From assembly GCA_017560095.1 (NCBI GenBank), contig JAFYOU010000042.1:1-42791 (forward strand): 42,791 nucleotides of DNA, given 5' to 3'. The position numbers were made by a program, and so were the translations under genes. The DNA comes from Candidatus Gastranaerophilales bacterium. Lineage in GTDB: Bacteria; Cyanobacteriota; Vampirovibrionia; Gastranaerophilales; Gastranaerophilaceae. Below, piece by piece: positions 6,485 through 21,335 of the stretch (the first letter of the stretch is position 1; each line of letters opens with the position of its first letter). The notes beneath the pieces are model-generated. The model worked only from the letters and a program-made list of their open reading frames with translations. It made no database searches and had not been told where the DNA came from.

Positions 6485-6882
6485 AACTCTTTAATTTTGT
6501 TCATAACTTTTTCTATGATTTTTTCGTTTGTTATTTCTAAATTAGCATTGGTATTTATGATTTCTTGTGCTGTTGAAAATTCTTGTTTACGTTTTCTTTC
6601 TAAATACCATTGTGCTGTTTTGATGTCGTCTAGGTTCTGATATAATGTGTGCTTAGCCTTTAGAATTGGGTTTAATTTCCACCTTGTTATTTTGTCCGAG
6701 AAATCAGGGTTGTCCCTAATGTAGTCATAGAACGTACTTTCGGGTACTTCTGCAAAAACACACGCTTCTGAATTGTTACAGCCCATCTTAAAGGCTGTTT
6801 CCAATTTTCGTAGTTCTTCTTCCTGAATTTTTGCGGGTCTGCCTCGTTTTTTATAATCCTTCGGGTCTTTCTTTTTAGTCAT
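6481..6882 (-). CDS. terS: Terminase small subunit
   Basis: This 133-aa protein begins with a basic KKRGRPAK segment followed by a helix-turn-helix (EEELRKLETAFKMGCNNSEACVFAEVPESTFYDYI), the usual layout of DNA-recognising small terminase subunits, and a C-terminal oligomerisation region. It sits immediately before terL with an ATGA overlap. It overlaps the end of the upstream sugar-nucleotide gene by 8 bp, placing packaging and DNA-modification genes in one operon. Confidence 0.85.
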   Translation of the reverse strand: MTKKKDPKDYKKRGRPAKIQEEELRKLETAFKMGCNNSEACVFAEVPESTFYDYIRDNPDFSDKITRWKLNPILKAKHTLYQNLDDIKTAQWYLERKRKQEFSTAQEIINTNANLEITNEKIIEKVMNKIKEL

Positions 6883-8179
6883 ATTTTTTACCTATTCTTT
6901 CATATTTAAAACCTATGCTTTTCATTTCTTCTTCATCTAATAGGTTTCTGTAATCAAGTAATATGTCATCTCTCATTGATGTCAGTATTAATTTATAGTC
7001 CAAGTTTTTAAATTCTTCCCACTCTGTTAATATAACCAACATATCAACTGCATAGGCACATAGTTTTGGACATTCATAATAGTTAACTTTATCGCCTAAT
7101 ATCTTTTTAGCATTTTCATTGGCTTTTGGGTCATATACTTCAAGAATGAGGTCTTTTTCATTTAAAAGATGTTGTATGATTTCTATTGCTGGACTTTCCC
7201 TACAATCATCTGTATTGTTTTTAAATGCTAAACCATATATTGCTATTCTAATTTGTTTTTCGCCATGTGGGTTTAATTCTTTTGCTTTGTCTGCAATTTT
7301 CTTTGCTATTTTCATTTTTCTAAAGTTATTACCATTGATTACTGTATCAACCAATGACATTTTAGAGTCAAATTCTTTTGATGTTTCTAATAGTGCTTTA
7401 GTATCTTTAGGAAAACAACTACCACCAAATCCTATGCCTGCATTTAAGAACTTATTACCAATCCTGCTATCTAATCCCATACCTTTAGCAACAAATTCTA
7501 CATTTGCGCCTGCTTTCTCACATAAGTCTGCTATTTCATTAATATAGTGTATTTTCAAGGCTAGGAAAGCGTTTGAGGCATATTTTATTAATTCAGATGA
7601 ACGTCTATCTGTAAATAAAACATTCTTGTCTTGATATAATTGCTGTAATAAGTTTTTTGCTTTTTCGCTATTTGTACCTATAACAATTCTGTCTGGGTTA
7701 AAGAAGTCATGTAAAGCAAAGCCTTCTCGTAAAAATTCTGGCATTGATACTATATCGCAATTTTCATTATTGATTATTTCTTCTACCATATCACCTGTGC
7801 CTACTGGTACAGTTGATTTAATTGCTATAACGATATGTCTGTCTATTTCACATTCTGCTATTTCTTTTGAGGCTTCTTTGATATAAGTTAAGTCAGCTTT
7901 ATTTGTGTTTGGTTCTGTTGGTGTACCAACTGCTAATATAACTAAATCAGCATTTTGTATTCCTTCTTTGATTGAATATGCAAAAGTTAATTTTCCTTCT
8001 TGAACTGTTTTATCGAAAAGTTCTTTTAGATTATCTTCGTAGATATCTATTTGACCTTTATTTAGTCTTTCAACTTTATCAATATTTTTGTCGATGCAAC
8101 ATACATTATGCCCTAAACTAGCAAAACCAACTCCTGTTGGCAATCCTACATATCCAGTACCTATAATACTTATATTCAT
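6875..8179 (-). CDS. ugd: UDP-glucose 6-dehydrogenase
   Basis: This 434-aa enzyme oxidises UDP-glucose to UDP-glucuronate with two NAD+. The N-terminal Rossmann motif is GTGYVGLPTG (residues 7-16), the catalytic Cys is in FGGSCFPKDT (Cys 255), and the substrate segment is near PEFLREG (148-154). Length matches UDP-glucose/GDP-mannose dehydrogenases. It directly follows a UDP-glucuronate decarboxylase gene (4-bp overlap), so the pair should convert UDP-glucose to UDP-xylose. The adjacent glycosyltransferase suggests that the sugar is meant for phage DNA rather than a cell surface. Confidence 0.93.
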   Translation of the reverse strand: MNISIIGTGYVGLPTGVGFASLGHNVCCIDKNIDKVERLNKGQIDIYEDNLKELFDKTVQEGKLTFAYSIKEGIQNADLVILAVGTPTEPNTNKADLTYIKEASKEIAECEIDRHIVIAIKSTVPVGTGDMVEEIINNENCDIVSMPEFLREGFALHDFFNPDRIVIGTNSEKAKNLLQQLYQDKNVLFTDRRSSELIKYASNAFLALKIHYINEIADLCEKAGANVEFVAKGMGLDSRIGNKFLNAGIGFGGSCFPKDTKALLETSKEFDSKMSLVDTVINGNNFRKMKIAKKIADKAKELNPHGEKQIRIAIYGLAFKNNTDDCRESPAIEIIQHLLNEKDLILEVYDPKANENAKKILGDKVNYYECPKLCAYAVDMLVILTEWEEFKNLDYKLILTSMRDDILLDYRNLLDEEEMKSIGFKYERIGKKYD

Positions 8180-9108
8180 AAAACCTCCTTTAGATATTCT
8201 ATTGTTTTATCCAAGCCGTCAGATAGTTTTATTTCTGGTTGCCAATTTAGTACTTGTTTTGCAACGGTTATATCTGGCTTTCTTTTTACTGGGTCATCTT
8301 GCGGTAAGTCTTTAAATACTATTTTAGATTTTGATTGTGGTATTTTTTCTAAAATAATTTCTGCTATTTGTTTTATTGTGTATTCTTCTGGATTTCCCAG
8401 ATTTACTGGCTTATTATATTCGCTGTTCATTAGCTTTATCATGCCATTAACTAAATCATCTACATAGCAAAAAGAGCGAGTTTGTGAACCATCGCCATAA
8501 ATTGTTATATCTTCGTCCCTTAAAGCTTGTTTGATAAAGTTTGTAACCACTCTGCCATCATCAGGGCTCATATATTTGCCATAAGTATTAAATATTCTAC
8601 AAATTTTAGTATCTAAGTTATATAGCCTGTTGTAATCTGTGAATAGTGTTTCAGCACATCTTTTGCCTTCGTCATAACAACTTCTTGGGCCATTTATATT
8701 TACATTACCAAAATATGTTTCTTTTTGTGGGTGTTCTAATGGATTTCCATATATTTCGCTAGTTGAAGCCTGTAATATGGTAGCGTTATTTTTCTTTGCC
8801 AATTCTAGTAAATTTAATGAACCTATAACGCAAGTTTTGGTTGTTTCTATTGAATGAAATCCTTGGTATGCTGGAGGACTTGCAGGACAAGCCAAATTAT
8901 ATATTTGCTCAACTTTTATAAATGACATAGAGTTGCAAATATCATGATTTAAGCATATAAAATTTTCATTATTTAGCAATTCTTCTATATTTTTCTTGCT
9001 TCCTGTATAAAAATTATCTAAACAATAAACTTTATGTTCTTGCTCTAATAATTTACGACATAAATTTGAACCAATAAACCCAGCGCCACCAGTTACCAAT
9101 ATAATCAT
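8176..9108 (-). CDS. UDP-glucuronate decarboxylase (UDP-xylose synthase)
   Basis: This 310-aa extended short-chain dehydrogenase/reductase has the NAD-binding TGGAGFIGS (residues 6-14), the Ser/Thr of ASTSEIYG and the catalytic YDEGK (Tyr 145, Lys 149). The surrounding NPLEHPQKETYFGNVN and GPRSCYDEGKR signatures are diagnostic of UXS enzymes rather than generic epimerases. It decarboxylates UDP-glucuronate to UDP-xylose. It lies between the glycosyltransferase and ugd genes in one operon. Confidence 0.92.
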   Translation of the reverse strand: MIILVTGGAGFIGSNLCRKLLEQEHKVYCLDNFYTGSKKNIEELLNNENFICLNHDICNSMSFIKVEQIYNLACPASPPAYQGFHSIETTKTCVIGSLNLLELAKKNNATILQASTSEIYGNPLEHPQKETYFGNVNINGPRSCYDEGKRCAETLFTDYNRLYNLDTKICRIFNTYGKYMSPDDGRVVTNFIKQALRDEDITIYGDGSQTRSFCYVDDLVNGMIKLMNSEYNKPVNLGNPEEYTIKQIAEIILEKIPQSKSKIVFKDLPQDDPVKRKPDITVAKQVLNWQPEIKLSDGLDKTIEYLKEVL

Positions 9109-9116
9109 TAAAACTC

Positions 9117-10082
9117 CTATTCTGGTATTTTATAGTGTTTAACTTTTTTAAAATCTTGTAATTTTATTCTTTTTTCGCCATAGAATTTGGCAGGTATTAA
9201 CTTTAAGTGTCCGTTCATCTTTTTTAGTTCTTTTCTGTTGTATTCATGATGAACTCTGCCATATTTGATTACTTTTCTATAATATTGTGGGTAAACTTTC
9301 ATCAATAAGTTTGTTTTATCTACGCTACTAAATTTATAATTTTCTGCGTCGCTGTATAAGCTTTCTTTATCATTTTTATCCTTTGCGTGATTTCCACCAA
9401 CGGCACATCTTGTACTTTCTTTACTTTTTAGTACTCCTCCAATATATGAAGCTATACAATAACCACTAACCATGACATCTGTTGATAATATAACATCCTC
9501 ATTATATCTACCTCGCCATCTTAAAGGCATGTCATTATAAATTAAATTACAGCTAAAACATCTTGTGTTGAGTGCAAAAGTGTTTTGCCTAACATTAAAA
9601 AAGAAATCTTTTTGTGCCAATTCAAGCATTAAGAGGTTTTCATATTTGTCAAAAAAGTTTTCCGCTTTTTTAAACTTCTCTTGAAAGTCGTTTATTTGAC
9701 ATCTTTTTCTTACATATATATTTTTAGCGTTTCTTCCTACAATGTGATAAAACATCATATTGTCATCCATAAGCCAGTGTGCTTTATGCCCTAACTTTTT
9801 GGCATAATCCCATGCAAAATTTCTTTCTGCACCAGAGCCAGCATTTTTCACTCTATGCGGAATATCATCACATGTTTCATATTTGTATTTATAAGTTTCA
9901 TCAAACTCTAAAATGGTTGTATATTTTTTTTGTTTTTCTGTTAAGTGCTTTTTGTATTCTTCAATTTGTTCTTTATGCAATATCAAATAATGCAAAACTT
10001 CGTATTCGGCTAACCATTTACTTGTTTTACATCTTTGAGGTCTATTATAACTAATGACAAATATCGGATACTTGTTAATCAT
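9117..10082 (-). CDS. TET-associated-type (DNA base) glycosyltransferase
   Basis: This 321-aa protein has the layout I associate with the TET-associated glycosyltransferase (TAGT) family of phages. It has N-terminal PIFVISYNRPQRC, a nucleotide-sugar DDN motif (residues 106-108 in HWLMDDN), and the signature MPLRWRGRYNEDVILSTDVM (about 184-203) with NED. Known members are proposed to glycosylate hydroxymethyl-pyrimidines in DNA. The neighbouring ugd/UXS genes point to xylose or glucuronate as donor sugar, and the ParB-like gene next door is a recurrent TAGT partner. No TET/JBP dioxygenase or hydroxymethylase is visible in the window, so the acceptor base is unknown. Confidence 0.8.
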   Translation of the reverse strand: MINKYPIFVISYNRPQRCKTSKWLAEYEVLHYLILHKEQIEEYKKHLTEKQKKYTTILEFDETYKYKYETCDDIPHRVKNAGSGAERNFAWDYAKKLGHKAHWLMDDNMMFYHIVGRNAKNIYVRKRCQINDFQEKFKKAENFFDKYENLLMLELAQKDFFFNVRQNTFALNTRCFSCNLIYNDMPLRWRGRYNEDVILSTDVMVSGYCIASYIGGVLKSKESTRCAVGGNHAKDKNDKESLYSDAENYKFSSVDKTNLLMKVYPQYYRKVIKYGRVHHEYNRKELKKMNGHLKLIPAKFYGEKRIKLQDFKKVKHYKIPE

Positions 10083-10707
10083 TTAACATATCTTTCTTCA
10101 TAAAAGCATAGGTACAATATTGTGTATTGATGTCAATATCTGTTTGTGGATTATACTTTTTAGCAAAATTGGTAATAAAGTCTTGTTTGTCGCAATTTTC
10201 ATCAAATACCAATACCAAATATTTAGAAATTGGCATTTTTGACAATGCTAACATCTTATTAGTTTGCATTTCTTGAAGATTGTCATTATCCATTAATTCT
10301 TCTTCGTCATAAAATTGGTCGTCTGCCATAGTAAAACCAACCACATCATCCAAACCCCAATCTTCTAGATTTTCTATTTCAAAATCTGCTTCAAGTTTTT
10401 CTAAATCCCATTCTCCAGCAGTATTGGCATTTAGCCTAATTACTACTTCTTGGCATTCTTTTTCGTTTAATAATCTATCTGGAACTTTGACATCAACTTC
10501 TTTATATCCAAGTTCTTTCATTACATGCAATCTTGCATGTCCGCCTAAAACGGTATTATCTGCATTAATTGTAATGATGTTTGCGTCACCACAACTCTCC
10601 AAAGACTTTTTTAGGTCTGCTAAGCCTTTTGCAGTAAACTTTCTTGGGTTTTTATCATATCCTTTTAATTCACTGATATTTCTTTTTTCAATTTTCCAAT
10701 TAATCAT
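10075..10707 (-). CDS. ParB/Srx-fold protein
   Basis: The N-terminus carries the ParB-like core: NPRKF after ISELKGYDK, then TVLGGHARLHVMKELGY, matching the GxxR-type nucleotide-binding segment. The acidic C-terminal half is specific to this subgroup. Stand-alone ParB domains next to DNA methyltransferases or TAGT glycosyltransferases are common in phages and probably assist DNA modification. I chose the Met at 10707 because GGGGGAACG sits just before it; an alternative Met at 10722 overlaps the previous stop (TAATG). It overlaps the glycosyltransferase start by 8 bp. Confidence 0.8.
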   Translation of the reverse strand: MINWKIEKRNISELKGYDKNPRKFTAKGLADLKKSLESCGDANIITINADNTVLGGHARLHVMKELGYKEVDVKVPDRLLNEKECQEVVIRLNANTAGEWDLEKLEADFEIENLEDWGLDDVVGFTMADDQFYDEEELMDNDNLQEMQTNKMLALSKMPISKYLVLVFDENCDKQDFITNFAKKYNPQTDIDINTQYCTYAFMKKDMLND

Positions 10708-10721
10708 CGTTCCCCCAAGCA

Positions 10722-10859
10722 TTATTTTAAAATTTTTCTTAAATACAACAATAAGGCATTTTTAAATATTGCCGTTTCTTTGCAATTTAATATTTTCGTT
10801 GCTTCTTTAAGCAATTCGTCAAGCTTTGACGATATATCGAACACTTTTTTAATCTTCAT
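10722..10859 (-). CDS. Ribbon-helix-helix-like regulator, 45 aa
   Basis: A 45-aa ORF starts MKIKKVFDISSKLDELLKEA and ends in YLRKILK. A short beta strand followed by two helices is the CopG/Arc ribbon-helix-helix pattern. It is the first gene after a promoter that contains a perfect 12-bp inverted repeat, so autoregulation of the RHH-ParB-TAGT-UXS-ugd-terS-terL operon is a reasonable inference. It ends TAATG into the ParB gene. Confidence 0.65.
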   Translation of the reverse strand: MKIKKVFDISSKLDELLKEATKILNCKETAIFKNALLLYLRKILK

Positions 10860-16942: not shown

Positions 16943-17340
16943 CTTTCCACCCCAAATATCGCTTGAACTTGGTTTTTAAGTTCGTCGGTGTTTTCACGCT
17001 CAAAGGCACTTACCAAACTACTTAAAATATGTATTTTAAGATTTTCAATTTCACTAGCACTGCTAATAAATAGGTTATCGTGTCGGTTGTAAAGACATAT
17101 CAACTCTAAACAATGTCTATCTGTAATTTGTGGATAAATTTCTTTTTGATATGCACAAGAACATTCTGTTGTGCAATTTTCTTGATTTCCACATTTAATA
17201 TCCATATATCTATCAAAAGTGCCGTATTCATTAGCTAATTCTTCGTTAGCCCAATATTTTTCCTCTACTGTGCAAGTGTCTTGATATTTTGGCTTAATAT
17301 CAAATGTTTGAAAAAATCTTTTTTCCAATTCTGTTGTCAT
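16939..17340 (-). CDS. Hypothetical Cys-containing protein, 133 aa
   Basis: Not recognised. The middle holds CGNQENCTTECSCAYQ (about residues 50-65), a four-Cys cluster, followed by a helical half. GAGGATTAACA precedes the ATG. Metal binding is inferred. Confidence 0.7.
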   Translation of the reverse strand: MTTELEKRFFQTFDIKPKYQDTCTVEEKYWANEELANEYGTFDRYMDIKCGNQENCTTECSCAYQKEIYPQITDRHCLELICLYNRHDNLFISSASEIENLKIHILSSLVSAFERENTDELKNQVQAIFGVER

Positions 17341-17342
17341 TG

Positions 17343-17627
17343 TTAATCCTCAAATAATTCTTTTTTAAAAGGCAAATTCCAATACCATAACAAATAAGCA
17401 CACATAACCTCTGGAAAGCCTTGTAATATCCTCTCTTTGTTATGTTCATCTGCTTTTCCGATTAATTCTAATAATTTTATTGTAAAATATGTTCCACCAC
17501 ATTGTTGCCACATTTCAACATCTTTACAGGCTCTTTTTAATTCGTTTGTTGAAACAATATATGCTTTATTATTTACAACAAATTCAATTAGATATTCGCT
17601 TTTTTTGCTAATTTCTTGAATAATCAT
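17343..17627 (-). CDS. Hypothetical 94-aa protein
   Basis: Not recognised. The start MIIQEISKKSEYL at 17627 is preferred over 17642 because AGGAAAGAAACA lies right before it. It is mixed alpha/beta, with a Trp-rich end (YLLWYWNLPFKKEL). Confidence 0.65.
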   Translation of the reverse strand: MIIQEISKKSEYLIEFVVNNKAYIVSTNELKRACKDVEMWQQCGGTYFTIKLLELIGKADEHNKERILQGFPEVMCAYLLWYWNLPFKKELFED

Positions 17628-17841
17628 TGTTTCTTTCCTCATATCTTGTTATTGAATATTCACACCAAAATTGATATTTGTTTATCATTTCTTGCCATTT
17701 TTTTACACTCAAATTAAATTCTAATTTATTTATACCCTTGTATGTATAAATAATTCTGTCGCTATTGAAATCATAAAACAACTCTCTTTGATTTACTTTT
17801 ATAGTAAATTCCCTTAAAAAATACTTTTTTTCAATTTCCAT
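17608..17841 (-). CDS. Hypothetical 77-aa protein
   Basis: Starts MEIEKKYFLREFTIKVNQ with GAGGTAAAT upstream. It is beta-rich and aromatic in the middle, with WCEYSITRYEERNND near the end. Its leader contains the first unit of the mini repeat array at 17859, so array transcripts and this mRNA share a 5' region. Function unknown. Confidence 0.65.
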   Translation of the reverse strand: MEIEKKYFLREFTIKVNQRELFYDFNSDRIIYTYKGINKLEFNLSVKKWQEMINKYQFWCEYSITRYEERNNDYSRN

Positions 17842-17858
17842 ATTTACCTCAATTAACT

Positions 17859-17930
17859 GTTTCAATTTGCAGAAATGTTACTATTCTTTGTTTTGTTTCA
17901 ATTATCTTTTCTGTTACTGTTGTTCTTCTT
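17859..17930 (-). repeat. Two-unit outlying TIGR-like array
   Basis: GTTTCAAT occurs at 17859 and 17895 and TGTTAC at 17876 and 17912 (plus-strand reading), giving the same 36-bp period and +17 offset as the larger arrays. A degenerate third copy may start at 17931, inside the end of the small gene. On the minus strand each unit reads 9-nt spacer, AAAGTAACA-like loop repeat, 9-nt spacer, ATTGAAACA edge repeat. Confidence 0.75.
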
Positions 17931-18105
17931 GTTTTTTGATTGTTTTGTTCATATATTTTTCTACAAAAGCAATCGCTTGCCCTCTGTATTTTCTCAAAAT
18001 TTCAATAAAGGCAACTACATATTTTAATTCATATTTTTCTGATACCCTTAATGCTCTTGTTACTAGAATATCGTCTTTATAAATTCTCGGTCTGCCTGCT
18101 GTCAT
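17914..18105 (-). CDS. Small basic protein between TIGR-like arrays, 63 aa
   Basis: Starts MTAGRPRIYKDDILVTRALRV and continues with two helices (KYVVAFIEILRKYRGQAIAFV), ending in a KKQEEQQ tail. The GRPR start followed by helices suggests a small DNA-binding protein, perhaps RHH-like. The start at 18105 has AAAGGACAATAT upstream. It has its own early-class promoter (18128-18156) and its stop codon lies in a repeat unit. Confidence 0.6.
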   Translation of the reverse strand: MTAGRPRIYKDDILVTRALRVSEKYELKYVVAFIEILRKYRGQAIAFVEKYMNKTIKKQEEQQ

Positions 18106-18127
18106 ATATTGTCCTTTCGTTAATTTC

Positions 18128-18156
18128 ATTATATATCATTTTTAATAATTTTGCAA
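18128..18156 (-). promoter_or_regulatory. Early-class promoter (TTGCAA box)
   Basis: TTGCAA, 17 bp and TATAAT on the minus strand, with the conserved AAAAAAAAGTA block upstream that abuts the left TIGR-like array at 18168. It drives the small gene 17914-18105 and the operon down to about 10957. Confidence 0.85.
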
Positions 18157-18167
18157 TACTTTTTTTT

Positions 18168-18397
18168 AATTCAATCAAAGGTCGTGCTTCTTTTTGGTTC
18201 GTTGTTTCAATTAGTGTTATTGTTCCTTTCTTTTACATTGTTTTACTTTATAAAAGTGGTACTCTTGCCCTTTTTGGTTCAATCAGGATTTTTGCTTTTT
18301 CGATATATTGTTTCAATTGAAGCTTTTGTTTCTTTTACCATATCTGTTTCAATCTGGGTCATTGTTACTTTCTGTGATAATGTTTCAATTTTTTTGG
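18168..18397 (-). repeat. TIGR-like array downstream of tas, 6 full units plus a half unit
   Basis: Plus-strand edge repeats (GTTTCAAT or one to three changes) start at 18168, 18204, 18240, 18276, 18310, 18346 and 18382. The period is 36 bp except one 34-bp unit. The second conserved block (TGTTAC or a variant) sits at +17 in each full unit. The last half unit ends at the tas stop codon. Read on the minus strand, the 9-nt pairs in the two cleanest units are ATTATCACA/ATGACCCAG (18346) and GATATGGTA/AAAGCTTCA (18310). No two variable blocks are the same. It is transcribed after tas by readthrough. Confidence 0.85.
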
Positions 18398-19390
18398 TTA
18401 ATCATTCACTATTTCATGTGCATGTCCTAAAATTGCAATAGCAAAAGGTTTTGGTGGCTCTTGATTAAATTCAAGTCTGTACCATTTATCAAAAAAGTGG
18501 CTCAAAAATATTTTTACAGCCCATCTTCTTGCTCTTGCATGAATATGTGCTGGTGGTAACATTCCTTGCGAATACCACTTATAAGCTTCTGTTGTTTTTC
18601 CTACCTTTTTAGCCTTTTCTTCTGCCAATTCTTTATATTTTAATGCTTCATTATTGGCTTGTTCTAATGCTTTTCTTTGAACAAATAACTTGCCATAAAA
18701 ATCATTTGAATTATTTTGAACTTTTACAAAGCTTTCGCCAATTTTATAGGCTAATGTTCTCATTCTTTGATTATATGGCACTCGTGAAAAATATTTTATA
18801 ATTTCTGTTTTTGTTATTTTAACTGGATTTTCTTTTTCTTGGTCGAAATGATTTAAAATTGTGTCATAATTCCAAGTTGTTTTTACTGACAATCTTGCCA
18901 AATCTTCAATATCATATTTTTTCTTGTCACCACAAACTTCTTCAACAAGTTTTGTTGCTCGTTCTTTTCCTAACCATTCAACGGTTGGGTCAAGTCCACA
19001 AAATCTCCAAAATGCACCTGCTGTTTTGGCTTTATTAATGTCTAAATTTGCAATTAATCCTGCCGAAATAACTTCTCCTATCCCTGTAATACCTAGTAGC
19101 CATTGTCCTATTGGTTGAGCTTTTACATATTCCTTTAAAACTTTTTTGATATTTTGTTCTAAACTTTCAAATTGTCCAGCAAAAAATCCTATTGCCTCGT
19201 GTGGTTCATCAATGTCACTTTTAACTATTGAGCGAACTTGATTATTTGTAGCAATTCTAAATCCTTGAAGCTGATAGTATAAATCAACTAGATATCTACA
19301 TTCTTCTCGTCCTAGTGTTGCCCCTGCTTTAATTAAATCTCTGTCTAGTTTTTTTGAGATTACATTTTCTAATTCTAATGTTTCAATCAT
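18398..19390 (-). CDS. Tas-like protein, Nop/IS110 C-terminal-type RNA-binding domain
   Basis: This 330-aa protein has an N-terminal helical part, a coiled-coil-like segment (about residues 64-92) and then LLGITGIGEVISAGLIANLD...FWRFCGLDP (98-135). That is the helix-hairpin-helix region found in IS110/IS116 transposase C-termini and equivalent to the Nop domain of box C/D RNP proteins. It lacks the N-terminal DEDD catalytic domain of IS110 and any HNH or RuvC motif, so it fits a nuclease-free Tas (TasA-like). The C-terminal HARARRWAVKIFLSHFF is basic. Its first codons ATG-ATT-GAA-ACA are themselves an edge repeat, and 36-bp arrays lie on both sides. AGAAAGGTTGTTATT precedes the ATG. Confidence 0.85.
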   Translation of the reverse strand: MIETLELENVISKKLDRDLIKAGATLGREECRYLVDLYYQLQGFRIATNNQVRSIVKSDIDEPHEAIGFFAGQFESLEQNIKKVLKEYVKAQPIGQWLLGITGIGEVISAGLIANLDINKAKTAGAFWRFCGLDPTVEWLGKERATKLVEEVCGDKKKYDIEDLARLSVKTTWNYDTILNHFDQEKENPVKITKTEIIKYFSRVPYNQRMRTLAYKIGESFVKVQNNSNDFYGKLFVQRKALEQANNEALKYKELAEEKAKKVGKTTEAYKWYSQGMLPPAHIHARARRWAVKIFLSHFFDKWYRLEFNQEPPKPFAIAILGHAHEIVND

Positions 19391-19405
19391 AATAACAACC
19401 TTTCT

Positions 19406-19769
19406 ATTTCAATTTATTTTTTTGTTACTTTTGTTTGTAATGTTTCAATATTTTCATATGTTACATTTGATTTGTATGTTTCAATTATTATGTTTGTTTC
19501 CTTTACTTTCTCTGTTTCAATTAACTTTTTTGTTGCTTTTTTTGCTATTGTTTCAATTTCCCCTCGTGTTACTTTCGGTAAGATTGTTTCAATTTTTTTT
19601 GCTGATACCTTCTGTTTGTATGTTTCAATCCTTTAAGTTGTTGCCTTTTAATGAGATGTTTCATTTCATCTGCCTGTTACACTCGTATTTGTTGATTTAA
19701 TCGTTTATGGAAAATGTTTCTTTCTTTATCTCTGACTCAATCTATGTATTTGTTACTTTCACTTTGGCT
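19406..19769 (-). repeat. TIGR-like array upstream of tas, 10 units of 36 bp
   Basis: Plus-strand edge repeats start at 19406, 19442, 19478, 19514, 19550, 19586, 19622, 19658, 19694 and 19734; eight intervals are exactly 36 bp and one is 40 (4-bp insertion). TGTTAC-type blocks follow at +17 (+21 in the inserted unit). On the minus strand a unit is spacer(9)-AAAGTAACA-spacer(9)-ATTGAAACA. Spacer pairs in transcription order: GCCAAAGTG/AATACATAG, GAGATAAAG/(13-nt block), ACAAATACG/GGCAGATGA, TCTCATTAA/ACTTAAAGG, TACAAACAG/GCAAAAAAA, ATCTTACCG/CGAGGGGAA, ATAGCAAAA/AAAAAGTTA, GAGAAAGTA/AACATAATA, TACAAATCA/TATGAAAAT, TTACAAACA/AAAAAATAA. All differ. Another edge-like copy starts at 19770 and one forms the tas start (19380). 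Confidence 0.9.
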
Positions 19770-19771
19770 GT

Positions 19772-20095
19772 TTATTCTTTGTATATAAAAAAGCTCTTTT
19801 GAATTAAATATTTATCAAAAAACTTTTTTTCGTCTAAATTATCTACATCATTATGACATTGGGTGCAAAGCGTGAATAATTTTTGCTTTTCTTTTACAAA
19901 TTCTTCTGTCCAAGTGCTTGGATAACGTACTTTTTTAGCATTTATATCTCTTATAGCTTTTTGTTGGTTCAAATAATGGTGTACTGTCAAAAAATGAGTT
20001 GTACCGCATAACTCACATCTACTTTTTGGTATATATGTTCTTCCAGTAGTTGTGTCGTAATACAATCCACTTTTAAGATAATAACTTTTTTTCAT
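19772..20095 (-). CDS. HNH endonuclease-like protein upstream of the array
   Basis: This 107-aa protein has CELC (Cys 27, 30), HH (39-40) and CTQCHND (Cys 77, 80, His 81, Asp 83), the zinc-ribbon HNH nuclease layout. ATTGAGGGAAA precedes the ATG. It is the first gene after the early promoter at 20121-20149, and its stop codon overlaps the first unit of the TIGR-like array, so HNH, array and Tas-like gene form one transcript. Some Tas proteins carry a fused HNH domain (TasH); here the two could be split. It might also be an unrelated HNH such as a terminase-associated or homing enzyme. Confidence 0.8.
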   Translation of the reverse strand: MKKSYYLKSGLYYDTTTGRTYIPKSRCELCGTTHFLTVHHYLNQQKAIRDINAKKVRYPSTWTEEFVKEKQKLFTLCTQCHNDVDNLDEKKFFDKYLIQKSFFIYKE

Positions 20096-20120
20096 TTTCC
20101 CTCAATTAAACTACATGTTT

Positions 20121-20149
20121 ATTTTACATTAAAAAATATAATTTTGCAA
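20121..20149 (-). promoter_or_regulatory. Early-class promoter of HNH-array-tas unit
   Basis: TTGCAA, 17 bp and TAAAAT on the minus strand with AAAAAAAAGTAT upstream and the leader TAGTTTAATTGAGGG downstream. Same class as 4996, 18128, 24838 and 32439. Confidence 0.8.
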
Positions 20150-20158
20150 TACTTTTTT

Positions 20159-20545
20159 TTAATATTTACTGCTTGAATATTTATTTTTTACACATTCCAA
20201 AGTTTCACCACTTACTTGCTGTTTAATGACCGATTGTAACGCACTCGCATGGGCTAAATAAGTCTTTATAACAAGTTCATAGCCCTTATATTCAGCTTCA
20301 TACATCAACATTTCTTGGTTTAATTGGCTTGCTACATTTCCATATTCATAATGAGCCATTAATTCAATTATTTTATTTTCTGGACTTTTCTTTGAAGTAT
20401 GCAAATTAGCTTTTTGAATTAATATCTGTAATTGGTTAAAACAATGAGAACTTTTTTTTCTAGCTTCAAGATAAAGTTTTGAATATTCCATAGCTTCACT
20501 TGTAGTTGATAATAGTTCTTCTTGAAAATCCATAAAATCAGTCAT
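20159..20545 (-). CDS. Hypothetical helical protein, 128 aa
   Basis: All-helical with no membrane segment; a long central helix contains MAHYEYGNVASQLNQEMLMYE. Not recognised by function. It is the last gene of the replication/recombination operon before the HNH-array-tas promoter and overlaps its neighbour by 8 bp. Confidence 0.7.
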   Translation of the reverse strand: MTDFMDFQEELLSTTSEAMEYSKLYLEARKKSSHCFNQLQILIQKANLHTSKKSPENKIIELMAHYEYGNVASQLNQEMLMYEAEYKGYELVIKTYLAHASALQSVIKQQVSGETLECVKNKYSSSKY

Positions 20546-20846
20546 TTTTTTGTTCCATTTCTTTTAATATGTAATACAATCTTGCACCAGCATTATAGAA
20601 AACTTGTGAAGCGTGTAACAATCCTGTTTCTTCGTCATAAACTTCATCTTCACTCAAAAAATGCCTCATCATAGCGTTTGTAAAGCGTTCTTTTCCATCT
20701 TCCAACTCTTTCCAGTTTCCTAATCCGTATGTTTTTGTTCCATATTCAAAAACCTTGCAAAGCTCTAATAGCTGAACTTTATAATCAAAAATCATGTCTG
20801 CTATTTTTGGCTTTCCTGCGTCGTGTTTTATTCCTTTTTTTTCCAT
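20538..20846 (-). CDS. dATP/dGTP diphosphohydrolase N-terminal-like protein
   Basis: This 102-aa protein starts KGIKHDAGKPKIADMI and has FEYGTKTYGLGNWKELEDGKERFTNAMMRH and LLHASQVFYNAGARLYYI. That is the small phage family (DUF5664/dGTP_diPhyd_N) related to MazG-like nucleotide hydrolases. Members are tied to dATP or dGTP turnover in base-modifying phages. The sequence stops at the N-terminal domain, so activity is inferred. It sits among dUTPase, ThyX and NrdG genes that also adjust dNTP pools. Confidence 0.75.
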   Translation of the reverse strand: MEKKGIKHDAGKPKIADMIFDYKVQLLELCKVFEYGTKTYGLGNWKELEDGKERFTNAMMRHFLSEDEVYDEETGLLHASQVFYNAGARLYYILKEMEQKND

Positions 20847-21335
20847 TTAATCCTCCAATACAATTTTTCCTGTTTTTAGTGTTTCTGGTACACTTATTAC
20901 TCTTTGATTTGAACTTCCGCACCATTTTATATTTACATCAGCCAAATCTTTTTGAAATTCACCATCTACAAGTACGTCTATATATTTCATAACTTTCAAA
21001 TCTTGTACTTCTTCAAACTTGTAGCCTGTATATATCCAAATGTCTTTGCTAGGGCAAAATTGCTTAATCGTTTTACATATTTGCTCAATTTCATTCCTGT
21101 TTTCTATATGCAATGGGTCGCCACCTGAAATTGTCGTTCCTTGTATGTATTCTTTTCCAAGTTCTTTTAATAACTCGCTTAAAGTGTCTTGTGTGAATTT
21201 TTGTCCACCCTCAATATCCCAAGTATATGGATTATGACAGCCTTCACAACGGTGTTCGCAACCAGCAACCCAAAGAACAACCCTTAAACCAGAGCCATTC
21301 AGCATATCGTCTTTTGTTATAGCCCAATAATTCAT
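20847..21335 (-). CDS. nrdG: Anaerobic ribonucleotide reductase activase
   Basis: A 162-aa radical SAM protein with CEHRCEGC (Cys 26, 30, 33), binding the 4Fe-4S cluster that cleaves SAM to generate the glycyl radical on NrdD. The GGDPLHIENR motif follows. No nrdD is present in the window, so it must act on a host enzyme or on an NrdD encoded outside the window. It implies an anaerobic host. Confidence 0.9.
   Translation of the reverse strand: MNYWAITKDDMLNGSGLRVVLWVAGCEHRCEGCHNPYTWDIEGGQKFTQDTLSELLKELGKEYIQGTTISGGDPLHIENRNEIEQICKTIKQFCPSKDIWIYTGYKFEEVQDLKVMKYIDVLVDGEFQKDLADVNIKWCGSSNQRVISVPETLKTGKIVLED

Follow-up and report, generated by a model that had tools for sequence, protein, structure and literature searches.

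The closest described system is TIGR-TasA, exemplified by the Flavonifractor plautii FpTIGR. In the available parts of Faure et al. 2025 (PMC12045711) it is described as a solo Nop-domain protein with no nuclease domain, with dual-repeat arrays of 36-nt units adjoining its gene. The targets of TIGR arrays, the growth of the arrays and the role of the nuclease-free TasA are named there as questions, and these parts of the paper report no confirmed natural target. The locus described here likewise combines a solo Nop-domain protein, with no nuclease domain, and dual-repeat 36-nt arrays adjoining the gene, and it is a new member of TIGR-TasA. This identification follows from how well the fold of the protein, the architecture and strand of the arrays, the covariation in the edge repeats and the spread over phages agree with TIGR-TasA, and this agreement also upholds the original prediction of a TIGR-Tas-like RNA-guided DNA-binding system in a phage.

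The array, its protein and the phage context

The DNA analysed (the window, 42,791 bp, 29.9% GC, contig C40) belongs to an assembly of 2.07 Mb in 58 contigs. The window is a phage contig, as read from its portal, head morphogenesis and terminase genes and from genes for an Erf-like annealing protein, a RecE-like exonuclease, a replication initiator, a sliding clamp, SSB and dUTPase. The TIGR locus sits among the replication and recombination genes of the phage. Phage and host are paired through the bin alone, and the estimated contamination of the host assembly is 7%. A gene at 20847-21335 for an anaerobic ribonucleotide reductase small subunit (activase-like; phrog_626, 1e-60) suggests an anaerobic host. 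Consecutive genes at 6875-10722, for a UDP-glucose dehydrogenase, a nucleotide-sugar epimerase, a glucosyltransferase-like protein and a ParB-like/methyltransferase-like protein, are possibly DNA-modification or surface-sugar genes. When the scanned window ORFs were checked for CRISPR-Cas, the sole match was a weak one, to a Cas4-domain exonuclease, on the RecE-like protein.

The 36-nt units flank a 330-aa ORF, tasA (18398-19390, minus strand), on both sides and lie on the strand of the gene. Ten units form the upstream array (19405-19776, minus strand) and six the downstream array (18167-18390, minus strand), while two more form an outlying pair (17858-17939, minus strand), the first unit of which overlaps the 3' end of a 71-aa ORF (MKLTKGQYMTAGRPRIYKDD...; 17914-18129, minus strand) located between the downstream array and the pair. 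Along the direction of tas, each unit is composed of an edge repeat (GATTGAAACA), an 8-nt spacer A, a loop repeat (GAAAGTAACA) and an 8-nt spacer B, the repeats being 10 nt each and the period 36, in keeping with the two alternating repeats of 8-12 nt, short spacers and units of about 36 nt that mark TIGR-Tas arrays. The original prediction had placed both the units and the ORF correctly. It had, however, read the repeats and the spacers as 9 nt each, which is off by one, and had missed the purine conserved as the first base of the repeats (in 16 of the 17 full edges and all 18 loops, one counted unit being misparsed by hand). Its count of 10, 6 and 2 units holds, except that two starts are truncated as judged by eye, that the unit at about 19742 has a B spacer of 12 nt, and that one downstream unit, at about 18318, carries a 2-nt deletion and a degenerate loop repeat. 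The truncated starts are those of the outlying pair and of the upstream array, which opens with AATAAACA on the minus strand; a truncated edge at the start is typical of TIGR arrays. The variable blocks had all been said to differ, and the 32 spacers of the 16 compared units (the misparsed one included) are indeed all distinct.

A pattern of edge-8-loop-8-edge with up to 3 mismatches matched the window at 11 places, every one of them on the minus strand and within 17858-19666, and was not matched in 100 dinucleotide shuffles. The 7-mer autocorrelation at 36 nt was 26 in the upstream and 11 in the downstream array; in 2000 first-order Markov shuffles it averaged about 0.3 and did not exceed 6 and 7, respectively. 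With a shorter edge-loop pattern, the whole host assembly gave 15 places at 0-2 mismatches, 13 of them within the locus, including all 9 places at 0-1 mismatch; the remaining places of the 55 had 3 mismatches each, with one in the locus, and were taken as background. No intrinsic-terminator-like site was found at 17300-20600, no unusually stable RNA fold in the four stretches tested, and no Rfam match in the window. TIGR arrays typically end in a truncated edge and a rho-independent terminator, which is not a strict criterion according to the available text of Faure et al. 2025 (PMC12045711).

The start codon of tasA overlaps a perfect edge repeat (ATGATTGAAACA, 19379-19390). Since its conservation was looked for in the relatives and not found, either chance or a local autoregulatory site could account for it; the autoregulatory site was rejected as a candidate, the repeat being perfect in the window but not conserved among the relatives.

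The protein had been assigned to the Nop/IS110 type, and comparisons of its fold and profile bear this out, with TasH and TasR matching better than the IS110 enzymes, including IS621. The solved TasH and TasR were present among the structure matches, where no entry was named TasA. Whole-chain TM-scores of the TasA model to Tas structures were no higher than 0.43-0.51 by query length, and a helical insertion is seen at about residues 140-204. The Nop alignment begins at model residue 24-29, which leaves too little room for an N-terminal RuvC or HNH domain, and no nuclease family was found among the Pfam or PHROG matches of the protein. As judged from sequence and predicted model, TasA is shown to be without a nuclease domain. 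Because its matches to PF02371 and phrog_4285 bear a transposase label, the gene could be taken for the remnant of an IS110-type transposase beside unrelated tandem repeats. However, there is no space for a DEDD domain, TasH and TasR outmatch IS621, and in dozens of contigs a related gene has similar arrays beside it, so that a transposase remnant is scarcely credible.

Immediately upstream of the array lies a stand-alone HNH-type ORF of 107 aa (19772-20095, minus strand; PF21368, 8.1e-5, 22.9 bits against a cut-off of 23; phrog_8048, 1.3e-6). A promoter-like element (ATTAAAAAAAAGTATTGCAAAATTAT ... TAAAAT; 20121-20163, minus strand) precedes this ORF, the upstream array and tasA, and a second copy (18128-18170, minus strand) precedes the 71-aa ORF and the outlying pair. 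Built around GTATTGCAAAATTAT, with a -10-like box, the element occurs at 18170-18128, 20163-20121, 24880-24838 and 5027-4996. It is identical at 20163-20138 and 18170-18145 and differs by 2 changes at 24880-24855, and its core appears again with a TATAAT box at 5027-4996. The recurrence of the element suggests co-expression with other phage operons.

The HNH protein might supply the nuclease activity in trans, making this a split TasH-like system, as its ORF is on the same strand and is preceded by the promoter-like element and followed by the upstream array. Free HNH genes, however, are frequent in phages. Family scans of 91 of the 113 picked neighbour genes placed HNH families at no more than 2 of the 91 proteins, the window's own included, among the best 25 of 33 Pfam and 25 of 115 PHROG families. 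In the clustering of neighbours, which took 60 of the 75 loci given, the only recurrent family (at least 4 loci; found in 5) that was not read through the arrays excludes the window. Neither the clustering nor the family scans gave a convincing recurrent partner gene of tasA. A split system is very improbable, and it is doubtful that the HNH-type ORF is part of the TIGR system.

Relatives of the locus and their edge repeats

A scan of viral contigs with the single protein found no relatives. The array pattern, in turn, found two IMG/VR phage contigs with the same repeats, and their Tas proteins, with 48% identity to the window TasA in the 27-kb contig and 45% over residues 20-327 in the 168-kb contig, seeded a wider search. 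This alignment-based search yielded 130 relatives in viral contigs, 80 of which were kept, and 12 in genome contigs, with 92 related loci as the result. Besides the window, the 290 genomes searched gave one weak match (G285), and a plasmid search gave none. The match in another genome (G420) was a false positive, its translation being a Clp-type ATPase. A distant match, about 27% identical across 28% of the query, was observed in 74 Mycobacterium phage records; near gp70 of Mycobacteriophage Pinto (gene 70, L014 2453-3163), a distant relative, no periodic array was seen.

Dual-repeat arrays were parsed in 70 of the 93 loci (window included) and comprised 1421 units, mostly with 8+8 nt spacers. 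Visual inspection led to the exclusion of 19 loci that were ambiguous or short, several of them showing short 36-nt arrays, and four yielded no array. Near-duplicates are present (for example L071-L073 and L092/L094-L096), and locus counts are therefore not independent. In the 43 tabulated loci, the window among them, arrays were located downstream only in 24, on both sides in 14 and upstream only in 5. One 188-kb phage contig (L059) had 93 parsed TIGR units within an 11-kb stretch around the tas match, far above the 5-15 units given as the most common array size in the available parts of Faure et al. (PMC12045711).

Repeat frames were set with a preference for GA...CA, and edges were distinguished from loops with a preference for Y-G-A at positions 4-6. 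Covariation was assessed in 67 of the 70 loci, with counts that ignore relatedness and include near-duplicates: positions 3 and 8 of the edge consensus were Watson-Crick in 63 loci (G-C 45, A-T 10, T-A 8) and positions 4 and 7 in 66 (C-G 48, T-A 18), the window consensus having T-A at both. Single edge repeats deviating from the consensus of their locus frequently lose the pairing (150 of 293 at 3-8, 89 of 204 at 4-7). Paired positions, between the two edge halves of the processed tigRNA, are described for TasR arrays in the available text of Faure et al. (PMC12045711).

The window repeats are more degenerate than those of many relatives, which, together with the unit short of 2 nt and the 12-nt B spacer, could indicate a decayed array or a coding repeat without function. 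Against this, the 330-aa ORF is intact with its conserved residues, and all 15 of the window edges parsed can pair at 4-7 and 10 of them at 3-8. Decay has only a slim chance of being the correct explanation.

Arrays of some relatives (L078, L082, L083 and L087; L054 and L090) have common units in near order, private units between them, point changes and shifted blocks. Of the 18 units of L078, L087 has 8 in identical form and 3 that differ by 1-2 changes, in an order altered by one swap and interspersed with private units, while L054 and L090 have 8 common units, in blocks at shifted positions. Spacers shared without their partner were isolated cases at most. It is conceivable, if on balance rather doubtful, that phage TIGR guide libraries change from within, units of the array being replaced, mutated and moved, and not by end addition as in CRISPR. 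Such a change unlike end-polarised CRISPR growth is a lead and not a proof, with its basis in the relatives and not in the window; if true, a phage could re-aim TasA by recombination with the arrays of relatives.

Putative mechanism and target searches

That the locus is a phage-borne TIGR-TasA system and that it operates through guides is, taken jointly, close to certain. The arrays and tasA would be transcribed on the minus strand, probably from the promoter element which also precedes other phage operons. TasA would bind the edge and loop repeats via box C/D-like ends, and a host RNase would cut inside the edge repeats to release 36-nt tigRNAs, as suggested by the pull-downs of TasA, TasR and TasH in the available parts of Faure et al. 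A TasA dimer with one tigRNA would then bind double-stranded DNA, spacer A pairing with one strand and spacer B with the other. By the rules for TasR, the bound site is expected to be A followed by B in reverse complement, spanning 16 bp with a gap of 0-2 bp. Since a nuclease domain is absent, TasA would most likely not cut the site it binds but block transcription or replication there.

For the searches, target sites were derived as A plus the reverse complement of B with a gap of 0-2, from the overhang and the C-5 rule as given in the available published text. The 1421 units had no exact self-target in their own loci, and the mismatch distribution was as in three shuffles; this search covered 70 loci, with whole contigs for three and fetched flanks for the rest. 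Best sites in the window for 16 of its 18 guide pairs (one misparsed) had 1-4 mismatches, with a mean of 2.75 compared with 2.69 after shuffling. About 1.1 Mb of related loci, searched with 947 guide pairs (all of the 8+8 form, after removal of 14 near-duplicate loci), contained 2 exact matches against a mean of 2.35 in 20 shuffles, and other pairing geometries gave 4, 1 and 2 exact matches against 1.8-1.9. In IMG/VR, 2 of the 18 window guide pairs matched 5 and 58 stretches, compared with 48 for a mispaired control, and in 29 genomes of the genus 3 of the 18 pairs had 0, 0 and 1 exact match. The sole exact match in the genus, in one genome of another species, lies between the genes of a glutathione synthetase and a TPR protein with other chromosomal housekeeping genes around, and is most likely due to chance. 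The target searches, a check that the original prediction had proposed for phage and host genomes, thus remained at chance level, and of the uses suggested there, against competing phages or to regulate genes, neither was shown, with self-targets not above chance and no convincing target elsewhere.

TIGR-TasA could also serve the phage's own cycle, its guides binding the phage genome for gene regulation, segregation or integration. The position of the locus amid replication and recombination genes, downstream of a promoter-like element that occurs four times in the window, would be in line with this, and a link to ParB and DNA bending are raised in the discussion, as available, of Faure et al. 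(PMC12045711). However, neither the window (16 guide pairs) nor the 70 loci (three as whole contigs, the others by their flanks) showed an excess of self-targets, integrase was absent among the window ORFs scanned (part of all ORFs), and the ParB-like gene (10075-10722) is nearly 8 kb off; a role in the phage's own cycle is unlikely. With self-targets lacking and the family present in phages, the guides would most likely be aimed at competing mobile elements of the same host, a role which, taken alone, we give slightly less than an even chance. The complete TasA locus with 18 guides and the 92 related loci, with their mostly consistent repeat grammar, are good material for finding targets, and the genus of the host bin has 29 genomes in the collection. 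The locus and its relatives are a resource for the questions on TIGR systems and not themselves an answer to them.

Comparison with known systems

FpTIGR, which was compared by its description in the available text only, has 18 nt of spacer per unit, whereas the window has 16. The TIGR-TasH of Salicola phage CGphi29 (9w04 and others) has an N-terminal HNH domain that the window TasA lacks, while its array, read by eye, has the layout and strand found in the window. TIGR-TasR (9mty) differs by the N-terminal RuvC of TasR, again lacking in the window TasA, and by repeats that, in the published text available, start with UG and end with CCA, where those of the window mostly have GA or AA and ACA. 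The IS110 recombinases IS621 and ISCro4, which align to TasA only from their residue 125 on, possess a DEDD/RuvC domain and a single bridge RNA, in contrast to the guide arrays of the window and its protein without such a domain. CRISPR-Cas, finally, has one repeat and one spacer per unit together with Cas genes, whereas each unit in the window has two alternating repeats and two 8-nt spacers.
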